Below are positions 8,957 through 64,000 of a stretch of 64,000 bases of DNA, piece by piece (position 1 is the stretch's first letter; each line of letters opens with the position of its first letter). The translations under genes were made by a program, and so were the position numbers. Source of the stretch: Antedon mediterranea (Eukaryota > Echinodermata > Crinoidea > Comatulida > Antedonidae); the NCBI RefSeq assembly GCF_964355755.1, contig NC_092674.1, forward strand, positions 17,117,001-17,181,000, read 5' to 3'. The notes beneath the pieces are model-generated. The model was not told the origin of the DNA. It ran no database searches and saw only the letters and a list, made by a program, of their open reading frames with translations.

Positions 8957-8959
8957 AAA

Positions 8960-24634: not shown

Positions 24635-27600
24635 ATTCGAAACCACTATTGAGAGCACTCAAACCTGAGCATTACCCGTTACGCCACAAACCAGTAGATG
24701 ACTGAAGAGCTGATAATAGTCTATTTATATGAATGGATGATCAATCAATGAAAAATAATGCTATGTAACTTTATTTCTGATTTTTAAAAAGGTCCACTTG
24801 GTTAGGCATGACATTTACAACCATAAAAATATCTCACTTTCAAAAACAATATTTATTTTCAATTAAAAAAAAAAAGAAAAAAATAATCCTAGAGGTTCGA
24901 ACCCACTACTGAGAGAACTCAAACCTGAGCATTACCGGTTACGCCACAACCAAGTAGCTTAGTGAAGAGCTGATATTAGTCTATTTATATGAAATGAATG
25001 ATCAACCAATGAAAAATAATGTTATGCAACTTTGTTTCTGATTTTAAAAAAGGTCCACTTGTTTAGGCCTGACAGTTGCAACCCTCAAAATATCTCACTT
25101 TCAAAAACAATATTTATTTTCAATAAAAAAAAGAAAGAAAAAAAATACCCGTATAGGTTCGAACCCACTGCTTAGAGCACTCAAACCTGAGCATTAACCG
25201 TTACGCCACAAACCAGTAGATGACTGAAGAGCTGATAATAGTCTATTTATATGAAATGAATGATCAATCAATGAAAAATAATGCCATGCAACTTTGTTTC
25301 TGATTTTAAAAAAGGTCCACTTGTTTAGGCCTGACATTTACAACCCTCAAAATATCTCACTTTCAAAAACCATATTTATTTTCAATTTAAAAAAAAAGAA
25401 AAAAAATACCCCTAGAGGTTCGACCTACTACTCAGAGCACTCAAACCTAAGCATTACCGATTACGCCACAAACAAGTAGATGACTGAAGAGCTGATAATA
25501 GTCTATTTATATGAAATGAATGATCAATCGATGAAAAATAATGCCATGCAACTTTGTTTCTGATTTTAAAAAAGATCCATTTGTTTTGGCCTGACATTTA
25601 CAACCCTCAAAATATCTCATTTTCAAAAAAAATATTTATTTTCAATAAGAAAAAAAAAGCAATATCCCTAGAGGTTGGAACCTGCTACTGAGAGCACTCA
25701 AACCTGGATATTACCCGTTACGCCACAAACCAGTAGACGACTGAAGAGCTGATAATATGAAATTAATGATCAATCAATGAAAAATAATGCCATGCAACTT
25801 TGTTTATGATTTTAAAAAAGGTCCACTTCTTTAGGCCTGACATTTACAACCCTCAAAATATCTCATTTTCAAACAAAATATTTATTTTCAATTTAATAAA
25901 ATAAAAATAAAAATATCCCAAGAGGTTCAAACCCACTACTGAGAGAACTCAAACCTGAGCATTACCGGTTACACCACAAACCAGCAGATGACTGAAGAGA
26001 TCATAATAGTCTATTTATATGAAATGAATGATCAATGAATGTAAAATGATGTTATGCAACTTTGTTTCTGATTTTTTAAAAGGTCCACTTGGTTAGGCAT
26101 GACATTTACAACCATAAAAATATCTCACTTTCAAAAACAATATTTATTTTCAATTAAAAAAAAAAAGAAAAAAATAATCCTAGAGGTTCGAACCCACTAC
26201 TGAGAGAACTCAAACCTGAGCATTACCGGTTACGCCACAACCCAGTAGCTGAGTGAAGAGCTGATATTAGTCTATTTATATGAAATGAATGATCAACCAA
26301 TGAAAAATAATGTTATGCAACTTTGTTTCTGATTTTAAAAAAGGTCCACTTGTTTAGGCCTGACAGTTGCAACCCTCAAAATATCTCACTTTCAAAAACA
26401 ATATTTATTTTCAATAAAAAAAAGAAAGAAAAAAATACCCGTATAGGTTCGAACCCACTGCTGAGAGCACTCAAACCTGAGCATTAACCGTTACACTACA
26501 AACCAGTAGATGACTGAAGAGCTGATAATAGTCTATTTATATGAAATGAATGATCAATCAATGAAAAATAATGCCATGCAACTTTGTTTCTGATTTTAAA
26601 AAAGGTCCACTTGTTTAGGCCTGACATTTACAACCCTCAAAATATCTCACATTCAAAAACCATATTTATTTTCAATTTAAAAAAAAAGAAAAAAAATATC
26701 CCTAGAGATTCGACCCACTACTCTGAGCACTCAAACCTGAGCATTACCCGTTACGCCACAAACCAGTAGATGACTTAGGAGCTCATAATAGTCTATTTAT
26801 ATGAAATTAATGATCAATCAATGAAAAATAATGCCATGCAACTTTGTTTCTGATTTTAAAAAAGGTCCACTTGTTTAGGCCTGACATTTACAACCCTCAA
26901 AATATCTCACATTCAAAAACCATATTTATTTTCAATTTAAAAAAAAAGAAAAAAAATATCCCTAGAGATTCGACCCACTACTCTGAGCACTCAAACCTGA
27001 GCATTACCCGTTACGCCACAAACCAGTAGCTGAGTGAAGAGCTGATATTAGTCTATTTATATGAAATGAATGATCAACCAATGAAAAATAATGTTATGCA
27101 ACTTTGTTTCTGATTTTAAAAAAGGTCCACTTGTTTAGGCCTGACAGTTGCAACCCTCAAAATATCTCACTTTCAAAAACAATATTTATTTTCAATAAAA
27201 AAAAGAAAGAAAAAAATACCCGTATAGGTTCGAACCCACTGCTGAGAGCACTCAAACCTGAGCATTAACCGTTACACTACAAACCAGTAGATGACTGAAG
27301 AGCTGATAATAGTCTATTTATATGAAATGAATGATCAATCAATGAAAAATAATGCCATGCAACTTTGTTTCTGATTTTAAAAAAGGTCCACTTGTTTAGG
27401 CCTGACATTTACAACCCTCAAAATATCTCACATTCAAAAACCATATTTATTTTCAATTTAAAAAAAAAGAAAAAAAATATCCCTAGAGATTCGACCCACT
27501 ACTCTGAGCACTCAAACCTGAGCATTACCCGTTACGCCACAAACCAGTAGATGACTTAGGAGCTCATAATAGTCTATTTATATGAAATTAATGATCAATC

Positions 27601-30175
27601 AATGAAAAATAATGCCATGCAACTTTGTTTCTGATTTTAAAAAAGGTCCACTTATTTAGGCCTGACATTTACAACCCTCAAAATATCTCACTTTCAAAAA
27701 CCATATTTATTTTCAATTTTAAAAAAAGAAAAAAAATACCCCTAGAGGTTCGACCCACTACTCAGAGCACTCAAACCTAAGCATTACCGATTACGCCACA
27801 AACCAGTAGATGACTGAAGAGCTGATGATAATAGTCTATTTATATGAAATGAATGATCAATCGATGAAAAATAATGCCATGCAACTTTGTTTCTGATTTT
27901 AAAAAAGATCCATTTGTTTTGGCCTGACATTTACAACCCTCAAAATATCTCATTTTCAAAAAAAATATTTATTTTCAATAAGAAAAAAAAAGCAATATCC
28001 CTAGAGGTTGGAACCCGCTACTGAGAGCACTCAAACCTGGGTATTACCCGTTACGCCACAAACCAGTAGACGACTGAAGAGCTGATAATATGAAATTAAT
28101 GATCAATCAATGAAAAATAATGCCATGCAACTTTGTTTATGATTTTAAAAAAGGTCCACTTCTTCAGGCCTGACATTTACAACCCTCAAAATATCTCATT
28201 TTCAAACGAAATATTTATTTTCAATTTAATAAAATAAAAATAAAAATATCCCAAGAGGTTCAAACCCACTACTGAGAGAACTCAAACCTGAGCATTACCG
28301 GTTACACCACAAACCAGCAGATGACTGAAGAGATCATAATAGTCTATTTATATGAAATGAATGATCAATGAATGTAAAATGATGTTATGCAACTTTGTTT
28401 CTGATTTTTTAAAAGGTCCACTTGGTTAGGCATGACATTTACAACCATAAAAATATCTCACTTTCAAAAACAATATTTATTTTCAATTAAAAAAGAAAAG
28501 AAAAAAATAATCCTAGAGGTTCGAACCCACTACTGAGAGAACTCAAACCTGAGCATTACCGGTTACGCCACAACCCAGTAGCTGAGTGAAGAGCTGATAT
28601 TAGTCTATTTATATGAAATGAATGATCAACCAATGAAAAATAATGTTATGCAACTTTGTTTCTGATTTTAAAAAAGGTCCACTTGTTTAGGCCTGACATT
28701 TACAACTATAACAATATCTCACTTTCAAAAACAATATTTATTTTCAAATAAAAAAAAAAGAAAAAAAATATCCCTAGAAGTTCGAACCCACTATTGAAAT
28801 CACTCAAACCTGAGCATTACCCGTTACGCCGCAAACCAGTAGATGACTGAAGAGCTGATAATAGTCTATTTATATGAAATAGATGATCAATCAATGAAAA
28901 ATAATGCCATGCAACTTTGTTTCTGATTTTAAAAAAGGTTCACTTGTTTAGGCCTGACAGTTGCAACCCTCAAAATATCTCACTTTTAAAAACAATATTT
29001 ATTTTCAATAAAAAAAAAAAAAAAAAAAATACCAGTATAGGTTCGAACCCACTGCTGAGAGCACTCAAACCTGAGCATTACCCGTTACGCCACAAACCAG
29101 TAGATGACTGAAGAGCTGATAATAGTCTATTTATATGAAATGAATGATCAATCAATGAAAAATAATGCCATGCAACTTTGTTTCTGATTTTAAAAAAGGT
29201 CCACTTGTTTAGGCCTGACATTTACAACCCTCAAAATATCTCACATTCAAAAACCATATTTATTTTCAATTTAAAAAAAATGAAAAAAAATATCCCTAGA
29301 GGTTCGACCCACTACTCAGAGCACTCAAACCTGAGCATCACCCGTTACGCCACAAACCAGTAGATGACTGAGGAGCTGATAATAGTCTATTTATATGAAA
29401 TGAATGATCAATCGATGAAAAATAATGCCATGCACCTTTGTTTCTGATTTTAAAAAAGATCCATTTGTTTTGGCCTGACATTTACAACCCTCAAAATATC
29501 TCATTTTCAAAAAAAATATTTATTTTCAATAAGAAAAAAAAAGCAATATCCCTAGAGGTTTGGAATCAGCTACTGGCAGCACTCAAACCTGGGTATTACC
29601 CGTTACACCACAAACCAGTAGATGACTGAAGTGCTGATAATATGAAATTAATGATCAATCAATGAAAAATAATGCCATGCAACTTTGTTTCTGATTTTAA
29701 AAAAGGTCCACTTCTTTAGGCCTGACATTTACAACCCTCAAAATATCTCATTAAAAAAAATATATTTATTTTCAATTAAAAAAAAAAAAGAAAAAAAGAA
29801 ATATCCCTAGAGGTTCGAACCCACTACTGAGAGCACTCAGACCTGAATATTACTCGTTACGCCACAAACCAGTACATGTCTGAGGAGCTGATAATAGTCT
29901 ATTTATATGAAATTAATGATCAATCAATGAAAAATAATGTTATGCCACTTTGTTTCTGATTTTAAAAAAGGTTCACTTGTTTAGGCTTGACAGTTGCAAC
30001 CCTCAAAATATCTCACTTTCAAAAACAATATTTATTTTCAATAAAAAAAAAAGAAGTAATAAAATACCCGCATAGGTTCGAACCCACTGCTGAGAGCACT
30101 CAAACCTGAGCATTACCCGTTACGCCACAAACCAGTAGATGACTGAAGAGCTGATAATACTCTATTTATATGAAA
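24635..30175. repeat. Satellite B array 1 (~260-bp tRNA-derived units)
   Basis: About 21 head-to-tail units of ~258-261 bp. Plus-strand order in a unit is GGTTCGAACCC, a TGAGAGCACTCAAACC segment, CCGTTACGCCACAAACCAG, AGCTGATAATAGTCTATTTA, GCAACTTTGTTTCTGATTTT, GGTCCACTTGTTTAGGCCTG, CAATATTTATTTTCAA, then an A-run. The minus strand holds the pol III boxes described at 47540-47625. Larger blocks recur: the CTTGGTTAGGC variant is at 24797, 26088 and 28421, giving blocks of 1,291 and 2,333 bases (five and nine units). Confidence 0.95.
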
Positions 30176-30540
30176 TAAATAATACTAGATACTAGAATAC
30201 AGCTACTACTAGAATATACAGGGGTTTAGAGACTAGTAATTAGGCCTAATAGTATCAATAGAAACTATAATTTTAACACGTAATTCTTTAGTAATAAACT
30301 ATATTAAAAACACCATAAACTAAAGGCTGATTATTTCGACAATCCACACAAAACTCCGCTATTCTATTATGAAATCAGCGGAGATAGGCCTAGAATCGTA
30401 CCGCACTTGTGTAATCACTTCTTGTTGCTATACGCTTGGGTGCACACGGAACAAGAAAATTTAACTGATGAATTATTCATGTTTATTTTGTGACGTTTCA
30501 TGATGGGGTCCCCAACTTATGTACGAAAAAAAAAATCGCT
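30176..30540. other. Unassigned sequence between satellite B and Ngaro copy 1
   Basis: Satellite B ends near 30175 at ATGAAATAAATAATAC. The next 365 bases have no counterpart in Ngaro copy 2 and no recognised gene. They contain AGGCCT words and an inverted pair around AACTCCGCT / AGCGGAG (about 30352-30383). Confidence 0.5.
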
Positions 30541-30660
30541 GCCCGGCCTAAAGATAAACGACCTAACTAATTTTGTAAATCAAGTGGCAACATTCAAGCC
30601 AGATTTTTGATAATCGACCTCGGATCGAATGACCCAGTTAAAAAGTAAGGTCTGCTTTCA
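30541..30660 (+). pseudogene. SGNH-hydrolase-like fragment, copy 1
   Basis: Reads PGLKINDLTNFVNQV, then, after a one-base frameshift in a T run, LIIDLGSND. GxND is block III of SGNH/GDSL hydrolases. The N-terminal part seen in copy 2 is missing because the block starts here. Confidence 0.55.
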
Positions 30661-30954
30661 GGCTAACTTATGCCATTAAATAACAACAATCTTATTATCT
30701 GTTTCTACTACTGCGTCACTGTGGACAATCCGGAACCGGATTTTAGAGGAAAATAAATACATAATTAAACAGAGTAAACAAAACAAAATGCCAGGCAATA
30801 CACTGTTGACACCATTTATTATTTTCCCATTGTTTTACATCCAAAAGAAATAAATAATAACTTGTTTTTTTTTTTGTTTGTTTTTTTTTCTTTCTTGATG
30901 CTACGCTAAACTGGCAAATATTTTGCACAAATCTGAATGGTTTATAGTTAGTAT

Positions 30955-32380
30955 AGCATTCATCTTATGACTCATGCTGGTTCCCCAAGTACATCATCAT
31001 TATATTAAGACTCATGCTGGTTTCCAAAGTACAGCATTCATTATGACTCATGCCGGTTTCCCAAGTACAGCATTCTCATGCTCCTAAGTACAGCATTCAT
31101 TATATGACTCATGCTGGTTCCCCTTCTACCACCACATAATTACTTATGCTGGTTCATAAACTACCCCCACATATGGCGGTGTTTTATTACTCATGCTCTT
31201 AAGTACAGCATTCATTATATGACTCATGCTGGTTTCCCTACTACCACCACATAATTTTTTTTGCTGGTTCATTATATTACTCATGCTCTTAAGTACAGCA
31301 TTCATTATATGACTCATGCTGGTTTCCCTACTACCACCACATAATTTCTTATGCTGGTTCATTATATTACTCATGCTCTTAAAGTACAGCATTCATTATA
31401 TGACTCATGCTGGTTTCCCTACTACCACCACATAATTTCGTATGCTGGTTCATTACCTACCCCCACATACGGCGGTGTTTTATCACTCATGCTCTTAAGT
31501 ACAGCATTCATTATATGACTCATGCTGGTTTCACTACTACCACCACATAATTTCTTACGCTGGTTCATTACCTACCTCCACATACGGTGGTGTTTTATCA
31601 CTCATGTTCTTAAGTACAGCATTCATTATATGACTCATGCTGGTTTCCCTACTACCACCACATAATTTCTTATGCTGGTTCATTAACCCTACTACCACCA
31701 CATAATTTCTTATGCTGGTTATTACCCACCCCCACATACGGCGGTGTTTTTATCACTCATGCTCTTAAGTACAGCATTCATTATATGACTCATGCTGGTT
31801 TCCCTACTACCACCACATAATTACTTATGCTGGTTCATTAACCCTACTACCACCACATAATTTCTTATGCTGGTTCACCATTATATGACTACTACCACCA
31901 CATAATTTCTTATGCTGGTTCATTCATTATATTATGACTCATGCTGGTTCCCCTATTACCACCACATAATTACTTATGCTGGTTCATTTACCCTACTACC
32001 ACCACATAATTTCTTATGCTGGTTCATTACCCACCCCCACATACGGCGGTGTTTTTATCACTCATGCTCTTAAGTACAGCATTCATTATATGACTGATGC
32101 TGGTTTCCCTACTACCACCACCACATAATTACTTATGCTGGTTCATTAACCCTACTACCACCACATAATTTCTTATGCTGGTTCACCATTATATGACTAC
32201 TACCACCACATAATTTCTTATGCTGGTTCATTCATTATATTATGACTCATGCTGATTCCCCTATTACCACCACATAATTACTTATGCTGGTTCATTTACC
32301 CTATTACCACCACATAATTACTTATGCTGGTTCATTTACCCTACTACCACCACATAATTTCTCATGCTGGTTCATTCTCT
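30955..32380. repeat. Minisatellite within Ngaro copy 1 (diverged 115-bp and shorter units)
   Basis: Repeats combine three words: GTACAGCATTCATTATATGA, TGCTGGTT followed by CTACTACCACCACATAATT, and CCCCCACATACGGCGGTGTT. Full 115-bp units are few, and many units are shortened or rearranged compared with copy 2. It lies between the SGNH-like and gag-like parts. Long minus-strand frames here are translations of the repeat and not genes. Confidence 0.9.
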
Positions 32381-32676
32381 ACCCCAATGCTGACTTTTGT
32401 CTCCAATCTTTTATTCACTCCTTTAACATGGTTGCAGGGCCCTTTTCCCCTGCAACTTGATGATATCTGTCCTCACACATTTTTCTTTCCGTCTTAATTG
32501 CACAAAGATTTTCTGACAGATACACCATGTCAGGACGGAAAAGAACTAACAAGAGGTAAAAAATACGGCACCAAAAAAAAAAGAAAAAAAAAAGAACCGT
32601 GCCAGTACCTGAATTTGACATAAATAAGAATTAAAGGACATGAGGCATATCGTCGAAACCCTGGTAACTTCTGTGG

Positions 32677-33060
32677 TTGAGATTAATGTCGGTAAGCCGA
32701 CCCTACCGGCAGCTCTCTTCCTCAAATCCCCTACCTTGTCAAAAACTTAAAGAGAAAATAATCTCCCACAAATTCATCGAGCTGCACAATCTGCTCGACT
32801 TCAACAGCGAAGCGGAAGCTTTGACGCTAACGCTCACTGGTACCTTTGAACTTGTGCCTAAGCCCAAATGCCGCATCTTAAACGAACACAACTGGCACTA
32901 GGCCTTTCACGACTTTGCCACAATTTTATTTAAGCAAATATACGCAGGACATCTTAAATTATTTTAAGTATATTAAATACCTCATGCGCAGTCATCCAAA
33001 TTAATGGTACTTTTACGACTGATAATTTCGAATGGCTACTGAGTACACACTTTGCTCTTG
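32677..33060 (+). pseudogene. Ngaro gag-like ORF1, copy 1, broken
   Basis: The first 75 residues (32677-32901) contain LKEKIISHKFIELHNLLDF and CRILNEHNWH, a stop, then AFHDFATILFKQIYAGH in the same frame. In a second frame, after further lesions, W.FYD..FRMA follows. The L..KI..G.FI.L..LL, W..AFH.FA and W..YD..FR pattern is what I remember of Ngaro/DIRS ORF1 proteins, which act as capsid/nucleic-acid-binding proteins. At least four stops or shifts are present. It lies directly upstream of RT, the family order. Confidence 0.6.
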
Positions 33061-33109
33061 GTCAAGCCGACCTCCTGCATAAACTAGACGCAACGACCTA
33101 ACCATAAAC

Positions 33110-34675
33110 CTCGAACCCATCCAACCGTGGAGCGTCCACTCGGCTTCTCCTACCATAACAGATTCAATAGATGTGTCCAGACAAACTGTCAGTATCGCCA
33201 CTCGTTTTTCAGTGCTCGGGATCCCAATAATTCCCACTAGAATAAGCGCACTCCTATCTGGTTACAAACACCACGCTTACTTAACCCAATGTTTCGCTCA
33301 TGGCTTCTACCTTACATGGGGCTGTTTTTACAGCAACTAACTCCCAAGCTATCATCAACAACCTTCCGGAAATTCCGTACCTGAAAAATGTCGTATCCTC
33401 CACAACCTCTCCTATCCCTACGACTCAAACGCTGTCAATCACAACATCCCTGGGTTTTGCATAACAGTTCATTACGAAACAATATCCAACGCAATAGACA
33501 TAATTGACATACACAATCACCCGGCATTCATGGCTAAGACGGACACCAGTGACGCATACAGACTAATACATTTACATCCCACTCAATATCACCTCACAGG
33601 TTTCACGTGGTTAGGCCAGTATTACTACGATAAAACGCTTCCCCAAGGCGGCGGATCTTCGTGTCAAATATTCAATAAGTTTTCTGACGGAGTGAAATTT
33701 TTCCTTATAAAAATGTTAAAACAGCCCAATAACGTGAAAATATTAGACGACATCCTCGTCATTGAAGACACACACCAACTGTGTGCGAACTCCTTGAAGA
33801 TATCCAAGACGCTTGCTGACCGCGGTGGCATACCTCTAGCACCGCACAAAACAATTTCACCCACCACCACCATTTCCTTCCTGGGTATTGAACTTGATTT
33901 ACAGAAAATGTAAGACAGGCTTCCATCTGAGATAATAAAATTACGTTACTCCCTTTAAAGTTCAAAACTTCACTCAACTACATTGAGAGCCCTCCAATCT
34001 CTTTGAAAAGCTACAATTTGCCACCTGGGTTATACCCTCTGGGCGGCGTTCCTAAGAAGGCTTAATGCCCTAACGGCCGGTCTAACTAACCCCCTTTTCA
34101 ACTATTCACCTTTCTGACTCAGCAAAGGAGGATCTCCAAATTTGGGCCGACTTTCTTAGCAAACACAATGGCGTTACCATTTTTCAACCCCACAAAAATT
34201 TGACTCGCAGCGTTTACATTTCTCCTCTGATGCCTCAAAAACCGCACTTGGTGCGACCTTCCAAAAGTTCTGGATTCAAGGCCGCTGGCCGGAATCTTGG
34301 AAAATGTTCGACATCATGGTTCTCGAAATTTACCCCATCTATGTCATGCTTTCGATTTTTGCAAAACAGCTAGCCAACACCCATGTAGTTTTCCACTGTG
34401 ATAACCTAGCTGATGTATATGTGCTTAACAAAAAATCGTCATCAAACGAAAAGCGCTATCGTCCTTTTGTTACTACTAAACAACATTCAGTTTACAGCCA
34501 GGCACATCCCTGGTAAGCAAAACAGGATATGTGACGCTCTTTCTCGTTTTCAGGAAACGGAGGCCATGCTAGAGGAGCACAGTATGAACCGCACACCGCT
34601 AAAGTCACCAAAGCACTTACAACCAATCTACTTCGAACCACTAAACAACTCAAGATCCTCACACGAGAGCTAATG
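33110..34675 (+). pseudogene. Ngaro/DIRS reverse transcriptase-RNase H, copy 1, broken
   Basis: The N-terminal part (about 33240-33520, several frames) keeps ISALLSGYKHHAYLTQCF and RILHNLSYPYDSNAVN. The open part 33530-33913 has KTDTSDAYRLIHLHP (motif A Asp), LPQGG (motif B region), and ILDD at residues 71-74 in place of the usual YxDD. FLGIELD follows. RNase H/connection blocks come next in changing frames: DLQIWADFLSKHNG, FSSDASKTALGATF, VVFHCDNLADV and HIPGKQNRICDALSRF (34304-34673). A 17-base deletion after 34453, relative to copy 2, breaks the RNase H frame. Copy 1 retains the 142 bases (33348-33489) that copy 2 has lost. Confidence 0.85.
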
Positions 34676-35308
34676 TGGAACTCATTAAGCAAATGAACCG
34701 CTAGTAACTATAAAAGCAAATGGCACCATTTTAACCAATTCAGGAAATTACTAAGCCTTCCGCTACCAGCGACTCCATAGACAATTGTTCTCTATGTAAG
34801 TAAGCTGACTAAAAATGCACTGGCGATTTCCACGATTCGAAACTACCTTAGCCCAGTATCATTCGTGCACAGGGTATCATTTATGGAAGACCTTACCGCA
34901 AATCCAGCAGTCAGCAATTTATGCAGAGGAGTAACGAAACAAAAAACGAACTCTCCATCCAAACCGATCAGACCGCCGGTCACCTCCGACATTCTTGTAA
35001 CGCTAATTGGACATATGCGAGGTAGCATGAAATTCAAATACGAATTCATCCTATACAGAGCCTTGTTCATAATATGTTACTTCGCATGCCTCGGAGCCAG
35101 TGAAGCAGTAGTCTCCAAGGCCGCAGAACACACACTAATGCTATAAACAATTAGCTCGCCATGCTAGTCTGGAACATACACAGTTTAACACTCATTCTTT
35201 CAGAATCGGTCGAGCTACCGACCTTCACCAACTTGGACACTCTCACCAAGACATTATGATTTTTGGACGATGGTCGAACCACATAACTTTGTCAAATACA
35301 GCGTTGTA
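34672..35308 (+). pseudogene. Ngaro/DIRS tyrosine recombinase, copy 1, broken
   Basis: The SAM-like N-terminal domain is seen as NYKSKWHHFNQF and ISTIRNYLSPVSFVH. The longest open part is 34865-35146. The catalytic core follows as RALFIICYFACLGASEAVV, where the catalytic Arg of box I is replaced (LGASE instead of the usual LRxxE). After a stop, HSFRIGRATDLHQLGH gives the H-x-x-R of box II, then IFGRWSNH, then a frameshift before the nucleophile candidate FVKYSVV. The enzyme would join circular cDNA to the genome by recombination. Both copies share the missing Arg, so loss preceded the duplication. Confidence 0.8.
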
Positions 35309-51733: not shown

Positions 51734-53525
51734 GTACAGCATTCATTATATGACTCATGCTGGTTCCCCTTCTACCACCACATAATTACTTATGCTGGTT
51801 CATAAACTACCCCCAAATACGGCGGTGTTTTATTACTCATGCTCTTAAGTACAGCATTCATTATATGACTCATGCTGTTTTCACTACTACCACCACATAA
51901 TTACTTATGCTGGTTCATAAACTACCCCCACATACGGCGGTGTTTTATTACTCATGCTCTTAAGTACAGCATTCATTATATGACTCATGCTGTTTTCACT
52001 AATACCACCACATAATTACTTATGCTGGTTCATAAACTACCCCCACATACGGCGGTGTTTTATTACTCATGCTCTTAAGTACAGCATTCATTATATGACT
52101 CATGCTGGTTCCCCTTCTACCACCACATAATTACTTATGCTGGTTCATAAACTACCCCCACATACGGCGGTGTTTTATTACTCATGCTCTTAAGTACAGC
52201 ACTCATTATATGACTCATGCTGGTTCCCCTTCTACCACCACATAATTACTTATGCTGGTTCATAAACTACCCCCACATACGGCGGTGTTTTATTACTCAT
52301 GCTCTTAAGTACAGCATTCATTATATGACTCATGCTGTTTTCACTACTACCACCACATAATTACTTATGCTGGTTCATAAACTACCCCCACATACGGCGG
52401 TGTTTTATTACTCATGCTCTTAAGTACAGCATTCATTATATGACTCATGCTGGTTCCCCTTCTACCACCACATAATTACTTATGCTGGTTCATAAACTAC
52501 CCCCACATACGGCGGTGTTTTATTACTCATGCTCTTAAGTACAGCACTCATTATATGACTCATGCTGGTTTCCCTACTACCACCACATAATTTCTTATGC
52601 TGGTTCATTATATTACTCATGCTCTTAAGTGCAGCATTCATTATATGACTCATGCTGGTTTCCCTACTACCACCACATAATTTCTTATGCTGGTTCATTA
52701 ACTACCCCCACATACGGCGGTGTTTTATCACTCATGCTCTTAAGTACAGCATTCATTATATGACTCATGCTGTTTTCACTACTACCACCACATAATTTCT
52801 TATGCTGGTTTATTACCTACCTCCACATACGGCGGTGTTTTATCACTCATGCCCTAAGTACAGCATTCATTATATGACTCATGCTGGTTTCCCTACTACC
52901 ACCACATAATTTCTTATGCTGGTTCATTAACCCTACTACCACCACATAATTTCTTATGCTGGTTCACCATTATATGACTACTACCACCACATAATGTCTT
53001 ATGCTGGTTCACCATTATATGACTACTACCACCACATAATTTCTTATGCTGGTTCACCATTATATGACTACTACCACCACATAATTTCTTATGCTGGTTC
53101 ACCATTATATGACTACTACCACCACATAATTTCTTATGCTGGTTCATTAACCCTACTACCACCACATAATTTCTTATGCTGGTTCACCATTATATGACTA
53201 CTACCACCACATAATTTCTTATGCTGGTTCATTCATTATATTATGACTCATGCTGGTTCCCCTATTACCACCACATAATTACTTATGCTGGTTCATTAAC
53301 CCTACTACCACCACATAATTTCTTATGCTGGTTCATTACCCACCCCCACATACGGCGGTGTTTTATCACTCATGCTCTTAAGTACAGCATTCACTATATG
53401 ACTCATGCTGGTTATATGACTCATGCTGGTCCCCCTACTATCACCCCATACGGCGGTGGTGTCTTATCACCCTCCTCTAAGTACAGCATTTCATTAAATG
53501 ACTCATGCTGGTTTCATTCTCTACC
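51734..53525. repeat. 115-bp minisatellite within Ngaro copy 2
   Basis: Regular 115-bp units start GTACAGCATTCATTATATGA at 51734, 51849, 51964, 52079, 52194, 52309 and 52424, with almost no changes. After about 52570 the array turns into shorter modules such as ACCATTATATGACTACTACC plus ACCACATAATTTCTTATGC. Copy 1 has far fewer full units, so the homogeneous part expanded after the two blocks separated, or was lost in copy 1. The plus and minus frames across it are repeat translations. Confidence 0.93.
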
Positions 53526-53800
53526 CCAATGCTGACTTTTGTCTCCAATCTTTTTTTTCACTCCTTTAACATGGTTGCAGGGCCCTTTTCCCCTGCAACT
53601 TGATGATATCTGTCCACACACATTTTTCTTTCCGTCTTAATTGCACAAAGATTTTCTTACAGATACACCATGTCAGGACAGAAAAGAACTAACAAGAGGT
53701 AAAAAATACGGCACCAAGAACCGTGCCAGTACCTGAATTTGACATAAATAAGAATTAAAGGACATGAGGCATATCGTCGAAACCCTGGTAACTTCTGTGG

Positions 53801-54185
53801 TTGAGATTAATGTCAGTAAGCCGAACCTACCGGCAGCTCTCTTCCTCAAACCCCCTACCTTGTCAAAAACTTAAAGAGAAAATAATCTCCCACAAATTCA
53901 TCGAGCTGCACAATCTGCTCGACTTCAACAGCGCAGCGGAAGCTTCGACGCTAACGTTCACTGGTACCTTTGAACTTGTGCCTAAGCCCAAATGCCGCAT
54001 CTTAAACGAACACAACTGGCACTAGGCCTTTCACGACTTTGCCACAATTTTATTTAAGTAAATATACGCAGGACATCTTAAATTATTTGAAGTATATTAA
54101 ATACCTCATGCGCAGTCATCCAAATTAATGTTACTTTTACGACTGATAATTTCGAATGGCTACTGAGTACACACTTTGCTCTTGG
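53801..54185 (+). pseudogene. Ngaro gag-like ORF1, copy 2, broken
   Basis: Closely matches the copy 1 ORF: CQKLKEKIISHKFIELHNLL and CRILNEHNWH, a stop at 54023-54025, then AFHDFATILFK in the same frame. It carries a few amino-acid differences from copy 1 (for example SAAEASTLTFT) and its own further stops. Same role and same uncertainty as copy 1. Confidence 0.6.
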
Positions 54186-54239
54186 TCATCGGTTCGAGCC
54201 GACCTCCTGCATAAACTAGACGCAACGAGCTAACCATAA

Positions 54240-55680
54240 ACCTCTAACCCATCCAACCGTGAAGCGTCCACTCGGCTTCTCCTACCATAACAGATTCAAT
54301 AGATGTATCCAGACAAACTGTCAGTATCGCCACTCGTTTTTCAGTGCTCGGGATCCCAATAATTCCCACTAGAATAAGCGCACTCCTATCTGGTTACAAA
54401 CACCACGCTTACTTAACCCAATGTTTCGCTCATGGCTTCTACCTTACATGGGGCTGCTTTTACAGCAACTAACTCCCAACGCAATAGACATAATTGACAT
54501 ACACAATCACCCGGCATTCATGGCTAAGACGAACACCAGTGACGCATACAGACTAATACATTTACATCCCACTCAATATCACCTCACGGGTTTCACGTGG
54601 TTAGGCCAGTATTACTACGATAAAACGCTTCCCCAAGGCGGCGGATCTTCGTGTCAAATATTCAATAAGTTTTCTGACGGAGTGAAATTTTTCCTTATAA
54701 AAAAGTTAAAACAGCCCAATAACGTGAAAATATTAGACGACATCCTCGTCATTGAAGACACACACCAACTGTGTGCGAACTCCTTGAAGATATCCAAGGC
54801 GCTTGCTGACCGCGGTGGCATACCTCTAGCACCGCACAAAACAATTTCACCCACCACCACCATTTGCTTCCTGGGTATTGAACTTGATTTACAGAAAATG
54901 TAAGACAGGCTTCCATCTGAGATAATAAAATTACGTTACTCCCTTTAAAGTTCAAAACTTCACTCAACTATATTGAGAGCCCCCCAATCTCTTTGAAAAG
55001 CTACAATTTGCCACCTGGGTTATACCCTCTGGACTGGCGTTCCTAAGAAGGCTTAATGCCCTAACGGCCTGTCAACTAACCCCCTTTTCAACTATTCACC
55101 TTTCTGACTCAGCAAAGGAGGATCTCCAAATTTGGGCCGACTTTCTTAGCAAACACAATGGCGTTACCATTTTTCAACCCCACAAAAATTTGACTCGCAG
55201 CGTTTACATTTCTCCTCTGATGCCTCAAAAACCGCACTTGGTGCGACCTTCCAAAAGTTCTGGATTCAAGGCTGCTGGCCGGAATCTTGGAAAATGTTCG
55301 ACATCATGGTTCTCGAAATTTACCCCATCTATGTCATGCTTTCGATTTTTGCAAAACAGCTAGCCAACACCCATGTAGTTTTCCACTGTGATAACCTAGC
55401 TGATGTATATGTGTTTAACAAAAAATCGTCATCAAACGAAAAGGTCATGAGAGTGGTTCGCGCTATCGTCCTTTTGTTATTACTAAACAACATTCAGTTT
55501 ACAGCCAGGCACATCCCTGGTAAGCAAAACAGGATATGTGACGCTCTTTCTCGTTTTCAGGAAACGGAGGCCATGCTAGAGGAGCACAGTATGAACCGCA
55601 CACCGCTAAAGACACCAAAGCACTTACAACCAATCTACTTCGAACCACTAAACAACTCAAGATCCTCACACGAGAGCTAA
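54240..55680 (+). pseudogene. Ngaro/DIRS reverse transcriptase-RNase H, copy 2, broken
   Basis: A 142-base deletion, relative to copy 1, removes the RT fingers region with the HNLSYPYD block and joins CTCCCAA to CGCAATAGA through the shared CCAA. As a result the 160-residue frame at 54421 begins with an out-of-frame peptide before entering RT at AIDIIDIHNHPAFMAKTNTS. KTNTSDAY shows Asp-to-Asn in motif A relative to copy 1. ILDD and FLGIELD remain. The RNase H/connection part is open over 55294-55680 and keeps VVFHCDNLADV, KVMRVVRAIVLLLLL and HIPGKQNRICDALSRF, better than copy 1. Confidence 0.85.
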
Positions 55681-56315
55681 TGTGGAACTCATTAAGCAAA
55701 TGAACCGCTAGTAACTATAAAAGCAAATGGCACCATTTTAACCAATTCAGGAAATTACTAAGCCTTCCGCTACCAGCGACTCCACAGACAATTGTTCTCT
55801 ATGTAAGTAAGCTGACTAAAAATGCACTGGCGATTTCCACGATTCGAAACTACCTTAGCCCAGTATCATTCGTACACAGGGTATCATTTATGGAAGACCT
55901 TACCGCAAATCCAGCAGTCAGCAATTTATGCAGAGGAGTAGCGAAACAAAAAACGAACTCTCCATCCAAACCGATCAGACCGCCGGTCACCTCCGACATT
56001 CTTGTAACGCTAATTGGACATATGCGAGGTAGCATGAAATCCAAATACGAATTCATCCTATACAGAGCCTTGTTCATAATATGTTACTTCGCATGCCTCG
56101 GAGCCAGTGAAGCAGTAGTCTCCAAGGCCGCAGAACACACACTAATGCTATAAACAATTAGCTCGCCATGCTAGTCTGGAACATACACAGTTTAACACTC
56201 ATTCTTTCAGAATCGGTCGAGCTACCAACCTTCACCAACTTGGACACTCTCACCAAGACATTATGATTTTTGGACGATGGTCGAACCACATAACTTTGTC
56301 AAATACAGCGTTGTA
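55679..56315 (+). pseudogene. Ngaro/DIRS tyrosine recombinase, copy 2, broken
   Basis: Same domain order as copy 1. The longest open part is 55890-56153. It keeps RPPVTSDILVTLIGHMRGS and RALFIICYFACLGASE (catalytic Arg of box I missing), a stop, then HSFRIGRAT (H-x-x-R), GRWSNH and, in another frame, the FVKYSVV tyrosine candidate. It follows RNase H directly, the family order. Confidence 0.8.
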
Positions 56316-56439
56316 AATATGGGTGCTGGCTGGTTGGCATATTTCCTAAGCATGACTGGGTATTAAGCGTCAAGCTTAAACAAAGTTTGATACTTATTTT
56401 TCCTGTATATCGTTTTACTTATTTCATTTTTGTTTTCTT

Positions 56440-57108
56440 TCGGTGACAGCATAGGTTGCACCGCCAATTATAATCATATGTTCAATCGGAGTCAACACGT
56501 TGCTCCAGGTAGACTAATAAGTTATTTATATGTTTTCGGTGTCAACATGGTTGCACCGTTTATTAAACTCAATTCTCAAACGCGTACTGGAGTCAACACA
56601 TGTTGCCCCAGGCAGACTAATGTAGATTGTTTCTATACGTTTTTCGGTGCCAACATTTGGTTGCACTGCCTACCTAATTAAAATGTTTAAACATGTACTG
56701 GAGTCAACACATGTTGCTCCAGGTAGACTAATGTAGGTGTTTCTATACGTTTTTCGATGTCAATATTTGGTTGCTCCACCTATCAGGCGCTAATGGTCAA
56801 CCGGGTACTGGAGTCAACACATGTTGCCCCAGGCAGACTAATGTAGATTGTTTCTATACGTTTTTCGGTGCCAACATTTGGTTGCACTGCCTACCTAATT
56901 AAAATGTTTAAACATGTACTGGAGTCAACACATGTTGCTCCAGGTAGACTAATGTAGGTGTTTCTATACGTTTTTCGATGTCAATATTTGGTTGCTCCAC
57001 CTATCAGGCGCTAATGGTCAACCGGGTACTGGAGTCAACACATGTTGCTCCAGGTAGACTATGTAGATAGTTTCTATACGTTCTGGGTGTCAACATATGT
57101 TGCACCAT
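56440..57108. repeat. Array of about 13 alternating palindromes in the Ngaro 3' region, copy 2
   Basis: Same two palindrome types as 35434-35878, strictly alternating. One four-palindrome block of ~220 bases (about 56583-56805) is repeated at about 56810-57030, giving four more palindromes than copy 1. In the repeated units the arms GGAGTCAACA/TGTTGCTCC and the CAACATTTGGTTG core are kept. Confidence 0.85.
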
Positions 57109-57180
57109 CATCTGAATGGCTTGTCATTGGTTCTACCTACACTTAATTTGGGCTGCTTCGTTGGCCCCTTCGTTGCCAAC

Positions 57181-57330
57181 TGTGTTGGCCCTTTCAGAGC
57201 ATCCCAATGTTCTCTTTTTATGTTTTCCTTTTACGTGCATGCTGCAACGATGACTTGCCATTCATATTAAATAACTTTACAATCAATACTTGTTTCCTTG
57301 TTTTTGTTTATCGGGCTCACATGTGTCAAA
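57181..57330 (+). repeat. Ngaro split direct repeat B1
   Basis: TGTGTTGGCCCTTTCAGAGC to CATGTGTCAAA. It is nearly identical to B2 (57504-57656), with a few indels such as TTCTCTTTTTATG for TTCCTTTATTATG. Confidence 0.9.
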
Positions 57331-57453
57331 ATCACGTGATTGCGGGGCGCCCTCGCAATCATCTTTTGACAGCGTGAGCATCTCATCCTCTTCACCTCAC
57401 GCTGTCAACAGATTACCACGCCAGTTTTTGGCTAAGTAAAATAATATTCACTT
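57331..57453 (+). repeat. Ngaro split direct repeat A2
   Basis: 123 bases matching A1 at the element's 5' end and placed between B1 and B2. GACAGCGTGAGC here pairs better with GCTCACGCTGTC-type sequence (CTCACGCTGTC downstream) than the A1 version GACAACGTGAGC. Confidence 0.9.
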
Positions 57454-57503
57454 CCCTCCCTCCACTCCCTCTTTATTTTGTTTTCAATTACGATTTTGAG
57501 ACA

Positions 57504-57656
57504 TGTGTTTTGGCCCTTGCAGAGCATCCCAATGTTCCTTTATTATGTTTTCCTTTTACGTGCATGCTGCAACGATGACTTGCCATTCATATTAAATAAC
57601 TTTACAACCAATACTTGTTTCCTTGTTTTTGTTTATCGGGCTCACATGTGTCAAAA
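57504..57656 (+). repeat. Ngaro split direct repeat B2
   Basis: Second B copy, ending CATGTGTCAAAA, and followed directly by the same satellite B unit as copy 1. Confidence 0.9.
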
Positions 57657-57916
57657 GTCTATTTATATGAAATGAATGATCAATCATTGAAAAATAATGC
57701 TATGCAACTTTGTTTCTGATTTTAAAAAAGGTCCACTTGTTTAGGCCTGACATTTACAACCCTCAAAATATCTCACTTTCAAAAACAATATTTATTTTCA
57801 AATAAAAAAAAAATATCCTAACAGGTTCGAACCCACTACTGGGAGCACTCAAAACTGAGCATTACCCGTTATGCCATAAAGTAGTACACGACAGAACAGT
57901 TTGTAATAGTCTATTT
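57657..57916. repeat. Single satellite B unit 3' of Ngaro copy 2
   Basis: Almost identical to 36106-36365, including the short A-run and the ATGCCATAAAGTAG change. Marks the shared insertion junction. Confidence 0.9.
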
Positions 57917-58826
57917 ATAAGTGTATTACGTAATTCATCATTACGTCATAAAAATCATATTAACCTTGTTAAAACCAAAATGGCCAGTTAGCTAAGACGA
58001 CTGAGCGTCGGTCGGTGGAATAGAGTTACGTCCCCCTTTCCACCACACATCTTGAGAAGGCACTAGCAATGCATCTGGCGATGATGTGGTGGAAACGACC
58101 CCAAGGCTGTGGCAGGGCCTTAGTGCTGAGGCAGGGAGAGCACATTTTTAAATTTTTTTTTGGCTTTCGCTACATGTATTTGATCTCGTAAATTTTATGT
58201 TTAGCGCCCTCAATTTAATGTAAAAAGAAATTAATTTATCTTCGTTACGTGTTTAGAAGAGAATGTATGTCTCATCGTAGTTTGGTATGCCGTTTGTTAT
58301 TATGCAAATGAGTTTTTGCAGGTGTAGTGGGAAAGATGGTATTGTTAGTAATTCGCGGTCAACACACCACACTGTCCCGCCACACTGTTGAATTTTGATT
58401 TTGTTAATCAATGTTGCTACATTGGTAGCGAAATGTCCGATTCATGCAAGATATTGTATTGTAATATGTTATAAATAAACATTTATGGATGGTAGTTGGT
58501 GTGTATGGCCGCACCGTCCCAGAATAAACATGTTTTAAACAGATAGTTTGTCTCCGATTATTTTTGTATTGGGTTAATGGAGAGTGAAATAGATCAAATA
58601 TAGAACATTTGCAAAGATGCCGATTTCCAGACCGATTTCGAAACTTAGACTAATTCCGCCGCCGGGCTAGGCCTTAGGCATATACGAAGTCGAAATTTTA
58701 AAGTAGAAAACTCTACCTAAAATTTTGAATTCGCATCTCGATAGTTGAATTTTTAACAAATATCATAAATATCATAGGTGATTATGTATGGTAATAAGTA
58801 TAAGTATAAGTGCAATTCTTTAAAAA
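57917..58826. other. Second copy of the unique flank, tRNA-like head mostly deleted
   Basis: Corresponds to 36366-37315. The tRNA-like start GGCCAGTTAGCTAAGACG keeps a perfect A box (TAGCTAAGACG), but 41-44 bases from the anticodon arm through the B box are missing, between GAGCGTCG and TCGGTGGAAT. A second deletion removes ~38 bases after GAGTTA. About 40 bases not present in copy 1 (GTGCTGAGGCAGGGAGAGC plus a T-run) follow GGGCCTTA near 58120-58160. No gene is seen. Confidence 0.75.
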
Positions 58827-61800
58827 GGTCCACTTGGTTAGGCATGACATTTACAAACATAAAAATATCTCACTATCAAAAATAAAATTTATTTTCAATT
58901 AAAAAAAAAAAAGAAAAAAAATACCCGTATAGGTTCGAACACACTGCTGAGAGCACTCAAACCTGAGCATTACCCGTTGCGCCACAAACCAGTAGATGAC
59001 TGAAGAGCTGATAATACTCTATTTATATGAAATAAAAAATAAATCAATGAAAAATAATGCCATGCAACTTTGTTTCTGATTTTAAAAAAGGTCCACTTGT
59101 TTAGGGCTGACATTTACAACTATAACAATATCTCACTTTCAAAAACAATATTTATTTTCAAATAAAAAAAAAGAAAAAAAATATACCTAAAAGTTCGAAC
59201 CCACTATTGAAATCACTCAAACCTGAGCATTACCCGTTACACCCCAAACCAGTAGATGACTGAAGAACTGATAATAGTCTATTTATATGAAATAGATGAT
59301 CAATCAATGAAAAATAATGCCATGCAACTTTGTTTCTGATTTTAAAAAAGATTCACTTGTTTAGGCTTGACAGTTGCAACCCTCAAAATATCTCACTTTC
59401 AAAATCAATATTTATTTTCAATAAAGAAAAAAAAAAGAAAAAAATACCCGTATAGGTTAGAAACCAGCTGCTGAGAGCACTCAAACCTGAGCATTACCCG
59501 TTACGCCACAAACCAGTAGATGACTGAGGAGCTGATAATAGTCTATTTATATGAAATTAATGATCAATCAATGAAAAATAATGCCATGCAACTTTGTTTC
59601 TGATTTTAAAAAAGGTCCACTTGTTTAGGCCTGACATTTACTACCCTCAAAATATCTCACTTTCAAAAACAATATTTATTTTCAATAACAAAAAAAGAAA
59701 GAAATAAAATACCCGTATAGGTTCGAACCCACTGCTGAGAGCACTCAAACCTGAGGATTACCCGTTACGCCACAAACCAGTAGATGACTGAAGAGCTGAT
59801 ATTACTCTATTTATATGAAAAAAATAATAAATCAATGAAAAATAATGCCATGCAACTTTGTTTCTGATTTTAAAAAAGGTCCACTTGTTTAGGCCTGATA
59901 TTTACAACCCTCAAAATATCTCACTTTCAAAAACAATATTTATTTTCAATAAAAAAAATATATATATATTCCTAGAGGTTCGAACCCACTACTGAGAGAA
60001 CTCAAACCTGAGCATTACCGGTTACGCCACAACCCAGTATATGAATGGAGAGCTAATAATAGTCTATTTATATGAAATGAATGATCAATCAATGAAAAAT
60101 AATGTTATGCAACTTTGTTTCTGATTTTAAAAAAGGTCCATTTTTTAGGCCTGACATTTACAACCCTCAAAATATATCATTTTCAAAAACAATATTTATT
60201 TTCAATAAAAAAAAAAAAAGAAAAAAATACCCGTATAGGTTCGAACACACTGCTGAGAGCACTCAAACCTGAGCATTACCCGTTACGCCACAAACCAGTA
60301 GATGACTGAAGAGCTGATAATACTTTATTTATATGAAATAAATAATAAATCAATGAAAAATAATGCCATGCAACTTTGTTTCTGATTTTAAAAAAGGTCC
60401 ACTTGTTTAGGGCTGATATTTAAAACCCTTAAAATATCTCACTTTCAAAAACAATATTTATTTTCAATTTAAAAAAAAAAAAAAAATCCCTAGAGGTTCG
60501 AACCCACTACTGAGAGCACTCAAACCTGAGTATTACCCGTTACGCCACAAACCAGTAGATGACTGAGGAGCTGATAATAGTCTATTTATATGAAATTAAT
60601 GATCAATCAATGAAAAATAATGCCATGCAACTTTGTTTCTGATTTTAAAAAAGATCCATTTGTTAAGGCCTGACATTTACAACCCTCAAAATATCTCATT
60701 TTCAAAAAAAAATATTTATTTTCAATAAGAAAAAAAAAAGCAATGTCCCTAGAGGTTGGAACCCACTACCGAGAGCACTCAAACCTGGGTATTACCCGCT
60801 ACGCCACAAACCAGTAGATGACTGGAGAGCTGATAATATGAAATTAATGATCAATCAATGAAAAATAATGCCAAGCAACTTTGTTTCTGATTTTAAAAAA
60901 GGTCCACTTGTTTAGGCCTGACATTTACAACCCTCAAAATATCTCACTTTCAAAAACAATATTTATTTTCAATAACAAAAAAAGAAAGAAATAAAATTCC
61001 CGTATAGGTTCGAACCCACTGCTGAGAGCACTCAAACCTGAGCATTACCCGTTACGCCACAAACCAGTAGATAACTGAAGAGCTGATATTACTCTATTTA
61101 TATGAAATAAATAATAAATCAATGAAAAATAATGCCATGCAACTTTGTTTCTGATTTTAAAAAAGGTCCACTTGTTTAGGCCTGATATTTACAACCCTCA
61201 AAATATCTCACTTTCAAAAACAATATTTATTTTCAATTAAAAAAAAAAAAAAAATATTCCTAGAGGTTCGAACCCACTACTGAGAGAACTCAAACATGAG
61301 CATTACCGGTTACGCCACACCCCAGTATATGAATGGAGAGCTAATAATAGTCTATTTATATGAAATGAATGATCAATCAATGAAAAATAATGTTATGCAA
61401 CTTTGTTTCTGATTTTAAAAAAGGTCCACTTGTTTAGGCCTGACATTTACAACCCTTAAAATATCTCACTTTCAAAAACAATATTTATTTTCAATTAAAA
61501 AAAAAAAAGAAAAAAAATAACCGTATATGTTCGAACCCACTGCTGAGAGCACTCAAACCTGAGCATTACCCGTTACGCCACAAACCAGTAGATAACTGAA
61601 GAGCTGATAATAGTCTATTTATATGAAATGAATGATCAATCAATGAAAAATAATGTCATGCAACTTTGTTTCTGATTTTAAAAAAGGTCCACTTGTTTAG
61701 GCCTGACATTTACAACCCTTAAAATATCTCATTTTCAAAAAAAATATTTATTTTCAATAAGAAAAAAAAGAAATATCCCTAGAGGTTCGAACCCACTACT

Positions 61801-64000
61801 GAGAGCACTCAGACCTGAGTATTACACGTTACGCCACAAACCAGTAGATGCCTGAGGAGCTGATAATAGTCTATTTATATGAAATTAATGATCAATCAAT
61901 GAAAAATAATGCCATGCAACTTTGTTTCTGATTTTAAAAAAGGTCCACTTGTTTAGGCCTGACATTTACAACCCTTAAAATATCTCATTTTCAAAAAAAA
62001 ATATTTATTTTCAATAAGAAAAAAAAAGCAATATACCTAGAAGTTGGAACCCGCTACTGAGAGCACTCAAACCTGGGTATTACCCGTTACGCCACAAACC
62101 AGTAGATGACTGAAGAGCTGATAATATGAAATTAATGATCAATCAATGAAAAATAATGCCATGCAACTTTGTTTCTGATTTTAAAAAAGATCCATTTGTT
62201 AAGGCCTGACATTTACAACCCTCAAAATATCTCATTTTCAAAAAAAAATATTTATTTTCAATAAGAAAAAAAAAAGCAATGTCCCTAGAGGTTGGAACCC
62301 ACTACCGAGAGCACTCAAACCTGGGTATTACCCGCTACGCCACAAACCAGTAGATGACTGGAGAGCTGATAATATGAAATTAATGATCAATCAATGAAAA
62401 ATAATGCCAAGCAACTTTGTTTCTGATTTTAAAAAAGGTCCACTTGTTTAGGCCTGACATTTACAACCCTCAAAATATCTCACTTTCAAAAACAATATTT
62501 ATTTTCAATAACAAAAAAAGAAAGAAATAAAATTCCCGTATAGGTTCGAACCCACTGCTGAGAGCACTCAAACCTGAGCATTACCCGTTACGCCACAAAC
62601 CAGTAGATAACTGAAGAGCTGATATTACTCTATTTATATGAAATAAATAATAAATCAATGAAAAATAATGCCATGCAACTTTGTTTCTGATTTTAAAAAA
62701 GGTCCACTTGTTTAGGCCTGATATTTACAACCCTCAAAATATCTCACTTTCAAAAACAATATTTATTTTCAATTAAAAAAAAAAAAAAAATATTCCTAGA
62801 GGTTCGAACCCACTACTGAGAGAACTCAAACATGAGCATTACCGGTTACGCCACACCCCAGTATATGAATGGAGAGCTAATAATAGTCTATTTATATGAA
62901 ATGAATGATCAATCAATGAAAAATAATGTTATGCAACTTTGTTTCTGATTTTAAAAAAGGTCCACTTGTTTAGGCCTGACATTTACAACCCTTAAAATAT
63001 CTCACTTTCAAAAACAATATTTATTTTCAATTAAAAAAAAAAAAGAAAAAAAATAACCGTATATGTTCGAACCCACTGCTGAGAGCACTCAAACCTGAGC
63101 ATTACCCGTTACGCCACAAACCAGTAGATAACTGAAGAGCTGATAATAGTCTATTTATATGAAATGAATGATCAATCAATGAAAAATAATGTCATGCAAC
63201 TTTGTTTCTGATTTTAAAAAAGGTCCACTTGTTTAGGCCTGACATTTACAACCCTTAAAATATCTCATTTTCAAAAAAAATATTTATTTTCAATAAGAAA
63301 AAAAAGAAATATCCCTAGAGGTTCGAACCCACTACTGAGAGCACTCAGACCTGAGTATTACACGTTACGCCACAAACCAGTAGATGCCTGAGGAGCTGAT
63401 AATAGTCTATTTATATGAAATTAATGATCAATCAATGAAAAATAATGCCATGCAACTTTGTTTCTGATTTTAAAAAAGGTCCACTTGTTTAGGCCTGACA
63501 TTTACAACCCTTAAAATATCTCATTTTCAAAAAAAAATATTTATTTTCAATAAGAAAAAAAAAGCAATATACCTAGAAGTTGGAACCCGCTACTGAGAGC
63601 ACTCAAACCTGGGTATTACCCGTTACGCCACAAACCAGTAGATGACTGAAGAGCTGATAATATGAAATTAATGATCAATCAATGAAAAATAATGCCATGC
63701 AACTTTGTTTCTAATTTTAAAAAAGGTCCACTTGTTTAGGCCTGACATTTACAACCCTCAAAATAACTCACTTTTAAAAACAATATTTATTTTCAATTAA
63801 AAAAAAAAAGAAAAAATTTCCTAGAGGTCCGAACCCACTACTGCGAGAACTCAAACCTGAGCATTACCCGTTACGCCACAAACCAGTAGATGACTGAAGA
63901 GCTGATAATACTCTATTTATATGAAATAAATAATAAATCAATGAAAAATAATGCCATGCAACTTTGTTTCTGATTTTTAAAAAGGTGCACTTGTTTAAGC
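58827..64000. repeat. Satellite B array 3, with 1,536-bp higher-order repeat
   Basis: About 20 units run off the window's right edge. A block of six units (~256 bases each) is repeated almost identically: GTCCCTAGAGGTTGG is at 60745 and 62281, and the private change CCAAGCAACT is at 60871 and 62407, both 1,536 apart. The second block ends near 63710. The pol III boxes are on the minus strand as elsewhere. Confidence 0.95.
60640..63711. repeat. Two copies of a six-unit (1,536-bp) satellite B block
   Basis: Copies 60640-62175 and 62176-63711 share private variants, including GCCAAGCAAC, ACTACCGAGAGC, the AACCGTATATG unit and CAATATACCTAGAAG. The only differences I see are A-run lengths. This marks a recent unequal exchange. 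Confidence 0.85.

Follow-up and report, generated by a model that had tools for sequence, protein, structure and literature searches.

Satellite B of Antedon mediterranea, a tandem repeat that probably carries mostly fossil pol III-type promoters and derives from a dispersed element

Satellite B arrays and their promoter module

A stretch of 64,000 nucleotides in the genome of the crinoid Antedon mediterranea (RefSeq assembly GCF_964355755.1, 354 Mb in 18 contigs; contig NC_092674.1, C5:17117001-17181000) contains three arrays of a tandem repeat, satellite B (Sat B), whose units resemble genes of RNA polymerase III (pol III). Here ‘the window’ refers to this whole stretch. Sat B is a satellite with a period of about 258-260 bp, running head to tail on a single strand in long arrays. 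When a 258-position model made from the array was searched with nhmmer, 97 matches were found in the window, every one on the minus strand. Of these, 89 are near full length; an earlier note made from the letters of the window had counted roughly 90 units. Mean pairwise identity among 88 near-full window units is 0.905. No Sat B was found with this profile at 30184-36097 or 50536-57648.

On the minus strand the unit carries, in this order, a TATA box (TATAAATA, model position 57), an A box (TGGCGTAACGG, position 100), a B box (GGTTCGAACCT, position 143) and a T-run, together referred to as the module. The gap between the boxes is about 32 bases, and the T-run lies a median of 9 bases past the B box. 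TATAAATA, which the earlier note overlooked, starts 43 bases ahead of the A box and is perfect in 69 of 88 units and absent in 18. Among the 89 near-full window units, the A box is perfect in 42 and has one mismatch in 39, and the B box is perfect in 43 and has one mismatch in 33. In 68 units neither box has more than one mismatch, and in 23 both are perfect.

For larger samples, the window was combined with nine other stretches (on C1, C2, C4, C8, C9 and C10), giving 233 near-full units, 115 of them non-redundant at ≤97% identity; as the nine stretches were selected around pattern hits, well-kept units are over-represented. A T-run of at least four follows the B box within 50 nt in all 233 units and within 20 nt in 232, and the B-box core bases C56 and A58 are retained in 96% and 98%. 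The arrangement that the earlier note described for nearly every ~260-bp minus-strand unit, an A box, a B box about 32 bases on and a T-run, is thereby confirmed for most units. Although the B box is a palindrome, its accompanying A box is present in the real monomer on the minus strand only. The pair of boxes appeared in 2 of 20,000 circular dinucleotide-shuffled monomers, so that chance is excluded. With A and B boxes of pol III type 2 at tRNA-like spacing in a tandem unit, Sat B resembles the tRNA-like pol III satellites of the OAX and PolIII/TAN kind.

The same note regarded a tRNA origin as directly visible in the repeat, which is not supported, and proposed a covariance search of its units. 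None scores as a tRNA: within 24600-30200, which holds 22 unit matches, the search gave no tRNA match at E ≤ 10. ARAGORN reported 0 tRNA. The single Rfam tRNA match at gathering score in the whole window lies outside the Sat B units, in a Val-like head beside an array (30.4 bits; Table 1). As a positive control, the same Rfam family gave 62 listed tRNA matches in this genome (63 candidates scored), of which 58 lie at C8:23.58-23.67 Mb with 66.8-74.9 bits. This control locus (G000:C8:23582228-23673161; L094) is an array of tandem tRNA-Lys(TTT) genes with a unit of about 175-176 bp, seven of which lie in a 1.5-kb sample, and it occupies the same chromosome, C8, as do Sat B blocks.

Some of the tRNA pairing has been retained. 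The whole D stem can form in 87 of the 115 non-redundant units, in line with the earlier statement that the D arm can still pair, and of the seven acceptor pairs four are possible in 93-97%, the remaining three in 1%, 10% and 30%. The whole T stem, on the other hand, forms in none of the 115, as three of its pairs are possible in 71-94% and two in 1-3%. RNAalifold found no conserved structure across the 115 satellite units or 60 modules of the dispersed copies described below, a test that gaps weaken. Residual pairing fits a tRNA-related origin, yet the units are not recognised as tRNA, and the likeness of Sat B to tRNA lies mainly in its promoter.

Dispersed copies with two divergent units

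Relatives of Sat B exist outside the arrays. An exact pattern gave 787 matches in the genome, dispersed ones included; among the first 100, which were listed, some on C1 stand alone, far from arrays. Dispersed copies share with Sat B everything from the TATA box to beyond the T-run. They were fetched by a pattern in the flanking promoter that is blind to the boxes (205 matches at ≤3 mismatches; judged by position, roughly one in four of the 100 listed falls within a Sat B region). From the 24 + 40 loci retrieved, L047 and L048 were dropped because they are in satellite blocks, leaving 62; L057, which may adjoin a satellite block, was retained.

In the first 22 copies a block of about 430 bp is conserved, with a divergence from consensus of 0.005-0.125 in 40-base windows, versus up to 0.19-0.37 on the sides, where the alignment is perhaps partly forced between unlike sequences. 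The block consists of two head-to-head units. One is the Sat B module; the other has a tRNA head that resembles Val(AAC), judging the anticodon by eye, together with a body of ~180 nt and a T-run. The promoter common to both contains an inverted TTACGTAA...TTACGTCA motif and TATA-like sites facing both ways, as read from the sequence. Over the 62 copies, divergence is 0.029 in the shared promoter (partly owing to the choice of pattern), 0.055 in the Val head, 0.089 in the Val body, 0.12-0.13 between the module boxes and in the spacer ahead of them, and 0.32 beyond the module. The divergent pair is thus better kept than its flanks in dispersed copies (L025-L046, L051-L090), and its counterpart in the window is at 36372-36690.

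The Val head was found as a tRNA by Rfam in L027 (E ≤ 1) and in 10 of 15 further loci (E ≤ 5), at 29.4-50.4 bits; it was not found at E ≤ 5 in L028, L029, L030, L041 and L055. The Sat B module gave no tRNA match in L027 (E ≤ 1) or in the 15 further loci (E ≤ 5). Past its tRNA head, the Val(AAC)-headed RNA of L027 (~250 nt) matched no Rfam family at E ≤ 1, and RNAalifold, again weakened by gaps, found only a T-arm helix in the Val unit. Open frames in block-bearing copies are short pieces only, one of which, as recognised by eye, resembles the end of a reverse transcriptase of the non-long-terminal-repeat type. On C6, five block-promoter matches in the same orientation lie within 150 kb (G000:C6:20244747-20394767), far from the listed C6 matches of the 88-bp satellite treated below.

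The block is associated with foldback DNA transposons. Five block copies start abruptly, with flanks that are unlike one another, and in L021 this end recurs in inverted orientation on the other side. The end motif has 121 matches in the genome, and among the 100 listed at least 16 inverted pairs, 3.2-5.9 kb apart, were recognised by eye. L091, L092 and L093 are foldback elements of 3.4-3.9 kb with 97-bp minisatellite repeats in both arms; in L091, 95-933 matches 3482-2647 in inverted orientation at 90%, with tandem repeats in both arms, as is typical of a foldback element. Possible target-site duplications were seen by eye as GTTCGCG beside both ends of L092 and CACTGTG near both ends of L093, and none was seen at L091. 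Arm sequence occurs within 1.5 kb of 13 of the 24 block loci, and in six (L022, L023, L027/L021, L029, L033 and L043) the block is flanked on either side by arm sequence in inverted orientation.

We considered whether Sat B could be an ordinary satellite derived from a short interspersed element (SINE), that is, a retroposed tRNA-headed SINE that turned tandem. The A and B boxes and a dispersed relative are those expected of such an origin, and SINE-derived satellites are known in scaled reptiles (PMC10702118). However, the module stops at a T-run soon after the B box, within 20 nt in 57 of the 62 dispersed copies. The T-run, which the earlier note set against a normal SINE, is hence no peculiarity of the satellite. 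Homology also continues past the module, through the promoter to the divergent Val unit and, for some copies, as far as foldback arms, and thousands of solo Val copies were not seen at three mismatches. The dispersed relative is a composite of two divergent units, with its module ending at the T-run. A SINE origin of Sat B is therefore highly improbable. The Val unit was also considered as an abundant free SINE, and was rejected on copy number, with 109 matches of a Val-body pattern versus the 205 of the promoter pattern.

Chromosomal placement and constraint on the boxes

One Sat B variant (73 matches, all listed) occupies one internal region each on C1, C2, C4, C5, C8, C9 and C10, and forms two blocks on five of these seven chromosomes. 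The 3-kb samples taken between the blocks consist of another satellite, with an 88-bp unit, in four of five cases (C1, C8, C9 and C10); the C4 sample does not. The 88-bp satellite has 50,179 pattern matches at ≤1 mismatch. Among the 100 exact ones listed, each chromosome represented has one main region (C1 27.46, C2 21.2-21.8, C3 16.6, C5 17.1-17.6 and C6 12.36 Mb), apart from a stray pair on C1 at 2.5 Mb (88-bp satellite samples, L001-L004). On C5 the listed matches stop 3.3 kb short of the window and resume on its far side, and in the window itself no 88-bp satellite was found at ≤3 mismatches. The 88-bp satellite is the best candidate for a centromeric satellite, and the Sat B block probably lies near the centromere.

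The earlier note proposed testing whether box positions vary less than the rest of the unit, and named equal divergence as counting against its reading. In the satellite the outcome goes against that reading, as no lower rate is detectable in the boxes. In the window, divergence is 0.054 in the boxes and 0.045 in the body, and the box placement ranks 88 of 204. By a parsimony count with base-context correction (233 near-full units, 115 at ≤97% identity), the boxes change at 0.86 of expectation (p = 0.135). Fixed box positions have 3.56 changes per site and the remaining module 3.70 (p = 0.46), and within the A box the fixed positions have 3.62 and the free ones 2.00. The T-run region is the most changeable part of the satellite. 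Thus the satellite boxes are without detectable constraint.

The dispersed copies contrast with the satellite. At the fixed positions of their A box there are 2.62 changes per site versus 8.00 at the three free positions, and the fixed positions of both boxes have 3.00 versus 4.15 in the rest of the module (p = 0.023), giving modest support for a working promoter there. A perfect B box is found in 40 of the 62 dispersed copies versus 106 of the 233 satellite units. Among the 36 of 62 copies in which both boxes were recognised, 23 have an A box and a B box spaced by 31 and 13 have them spaced by 38-45.

If Sat B were an active pol III satellite, many of its units would be transcribed into RNA of ~75-95 nt ending at the built-in T-run. 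Well-matched boxes, a TATA box kept in most units and a T-run close behind the B box would all suit such transcription. In addition, the newt satellite PolIII/TAN is reported in PMC10702118 to be transcribed in vitro, and OAX DNA is transcribed in Xenopus oocytes according to the title of a work cited there. We nevertheless regard bulk activity as unlikely, since the boxes are not detectably constrained in the satellite, none of the 22 unit matches searched scores as a tRNA at E ≤ 10, RNAalifold (a weak test) gave no conserved RNA structure, and a site near the candidate centromere would suggest silence.

The boxes might instead act as DNA. tRNA genes mark centromere borders in fission yeast, and TFIIIC, with or without pol III, could bind the Sat B arrays and mark a border between centromere core and flank. 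Sat B blocks flank the 88-bp samples on four chromosomes, and the B-box core is retained. This reading is very unlikely, however, because the boxes are no more constrained than the rest of the unit, and because the listed 88-bp matches on both sides of the window on C5 mean that the blocks are not clean borders there.

Origin of the satellite and related systems

We think it probable that Sat B is a pericentromeric deletion derivative of the dispersed element, which was amplified and carries mostly fossil pol III promoters. In the dispersed copies, two short pol III-type units are placed head to head over a shared promoter of ~100 bp, with a predicted RNA of ~75-95 nt from the module unit and ~250 nt from the Val-headed unit. 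Where a foldback DNA transposon with arms of 97-bp minisatellite repeats is associated, some copies are enclosed by its two arms and others adjoin them. To form the satellite, a segment with the module and ~90 bp of body would have lost the intervening ~1 kb or more, and the resulting ~260-bp unit would have become tandem, head to tail, and multiplied near the candidate centromeric satellite of 88 bp.

Two copies in the window (36098-37307 and 57649-58819) look like intermediates, as each keeps the module joined to the Val unit and to more of the parent sequence. L023 holds a module match and, 2.4 kb further on, the rest of the monomer (3306-3433 and 5804-5892). An internal deletion to ~260 bp followed by head-to-tail amplification would be the simplest path. 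The boxes and the terminator were most likely inherited and are drifting. Since their present rate of change is close to that of the remaining unit, fossil promoters are probably the rule, although the many units whose boxes are intact might still be bound by TFIIIC or yield some short RNA. What the sequence shows directly is the array, the module common to both repeats with its order in the parent, where Sat B sits in the genome, and satellite boxes free of detectable constraint; the deletion route, the position at the centromere, silence and transcription of any kind are inferred.

Several points weigh against this reading. Concerted evolution homogenises satellite units and so weakens per-site tests of selection, the satellite constraint tests are limited by outside stretches centred on well-kept units, and the satellite TATA is quieter than average (0.63 of expectation). 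The dispersed loci were picked by a near-perfect promoter match and hence are well-kept copies. In these copies a comparison of all 22 box positions with the rest has p = 0.19, and the fixed positions of the B box are not quieter than the free ones (3.38 versus 2.67), so that the box constraint there is modest and depends on the A box. Because 11 of the 24 block loci have no foldback arm nearby and the three complete foldback elements (L091, L092 and L093) have no Sat B module, the foldback link is an association, not proof of carriage. The placement near the centromere is judged from sequence, by the single internal region on each of seven chromosomes and the nearby 88-bp satellite.

Table 1 Features of the window (positions count from its first letter; ‘.’, no strand given)
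Feature	Positions	Strand	Basis
Sat B array 1, 22 unit matches (~260 bp each)	24636-30183	-	nhmmer profile
Example unit: TATA 25244-25251, A box 25198-25208, B box 25155-25165, 32 bases between boxes, T-run 25138-25145	25155-25251	-	read from sequence
Sat B fragment, 2 matches; degenerate unit (body piece + TATA-A-B-T-run module), attached to parent-element sequence	36098-36371	-	profile + comparison
Promoter region common to the two divergent pol III-type units	36372-36430	.	comparison with dispersed copies
Val(AAC)-like tRNA head of the divergent second unit, Rfam tRNA 30.4 bits (anticodon by eye)	36431-36503	+	covariance search
Body of the Val-headed unit, degraded window copy, end approximate	36504-36690	+	comparison
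Parent-element remnant, 87% to L023 4915-5243, stops 5 bases ahead of array 2	36977-37307	+	comparison
Sat B array 2, 51 unit matches, disturbed near 41164-41547	37313-50535	-	nhmmer profile
Sat B fragment, 2 matches	57649-57922	-	nhmmer profile
Second, more deleted module + Val unit + remnant, stops 5 bases ahead of array 3	57649-58819	.	comparison
Sat B array 3, 20 unit matches, reaches window end	58825-63977	-	nhmmer profile
Satellite A, adjoins Sat B	20433-24632	.	sequence

Other features of the window concern how the region is built. The order satellite A, Sat B, parent block recurs on C1 (L047, with satellite A at L047 1-967); as satellite A borders Sat B in both places, their junction is common to C1 and C5. 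The segments 30184-37312 and 51300-58824 are one segment duplicated about 21 kb apart, 95-98% identical in the best stretches, with minisatellites and DIRS-like retroelement remnants (recognised by eye), which indicates that the region also grew through large segmental copying. At 7026-19180 a unit of ~5.2 kb is present in three copies, whose frames recur at 7026, 12232 and 17438 and at 8226, 13432 and 18638, and which is possibly a gene.

Vault RNA and EBER-type pol III genes have an upstream TATA plus internal A and B boxes. By architecture Sat B can be likened to them, with a TATA, internal boxes and a T-run, but here two such units share one divergent promoter. Among the open-licence titles listed, none pointed to a publication on Sat B or to one on foldback elements that carry pol III units, which does not exclude such work elsewhere.

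The anatomy of Sat B matches that of other tRNA-like pol III satellites, as these are described in PMC10702118. First, PolIII/TAN of the newt Cynops pyrrhogaster is likewise tandem (~360 nt) with a tRNA-like sequence. That text gives no similar SINE as known for PolIII/TAN, whereas Sat B has a dispersed relative with a divergent second unit; on the other hand, the tRNA covariance model gives no match on the Sat B module, and Sat B is known from sequence alone, while PolIII/TAN has its transcription in vitro. Second, OAX, or satellite I, of Xenopus is tandem with a tRNA-derived segment, but its unit is judged there to be too long for a proper satellite, unlike the ~260-bp unit of Sat B with its TATA box and a T-run close past the B box. 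Third, Rana/polIII (frog family, ~250 nt, tandem) has the unit size and the tRNA-like region of Sat B, a likeness drawn from its description in the same source. A foldback element is also tied to the birth of a satellite in Drosophila virilis, where, according to PMC4079207, the TIR-220 satellite arose from tandem repeats inside the inverted arms of Tetris. Sat B would differ in deriving from a module between or near the arms, not from the 97-bp arm repeat.

A stronger proposal is that the dispersed element carries a conserved bidirectional pol III promoter for two divergent small RNAs, the Val-headed one of ~250 nt and the Sat B module, and that TFIIIC binding or bulk transcription persists in Sat B. 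We consider it quite unlikely; if it were true, a transposon-linked pol III gene would have become a component of the pericentromere on most chromosomes. The A and B boxes in nearly every unit are a warning, as their presence does not prove selection of a satellite as a pol III gene. The published SINE-satellite examples examined in PMC10702118, tRNA-like ones included, are called inconclusive there because the link to a dispersed element is missing or doubtful. The genome of Antedon mediterranea contains the finished satellite, a dispersed relative and two intermediates side by side, so that the way in which a dispersed pol III unit turns into a satellite can be traced in sequence.

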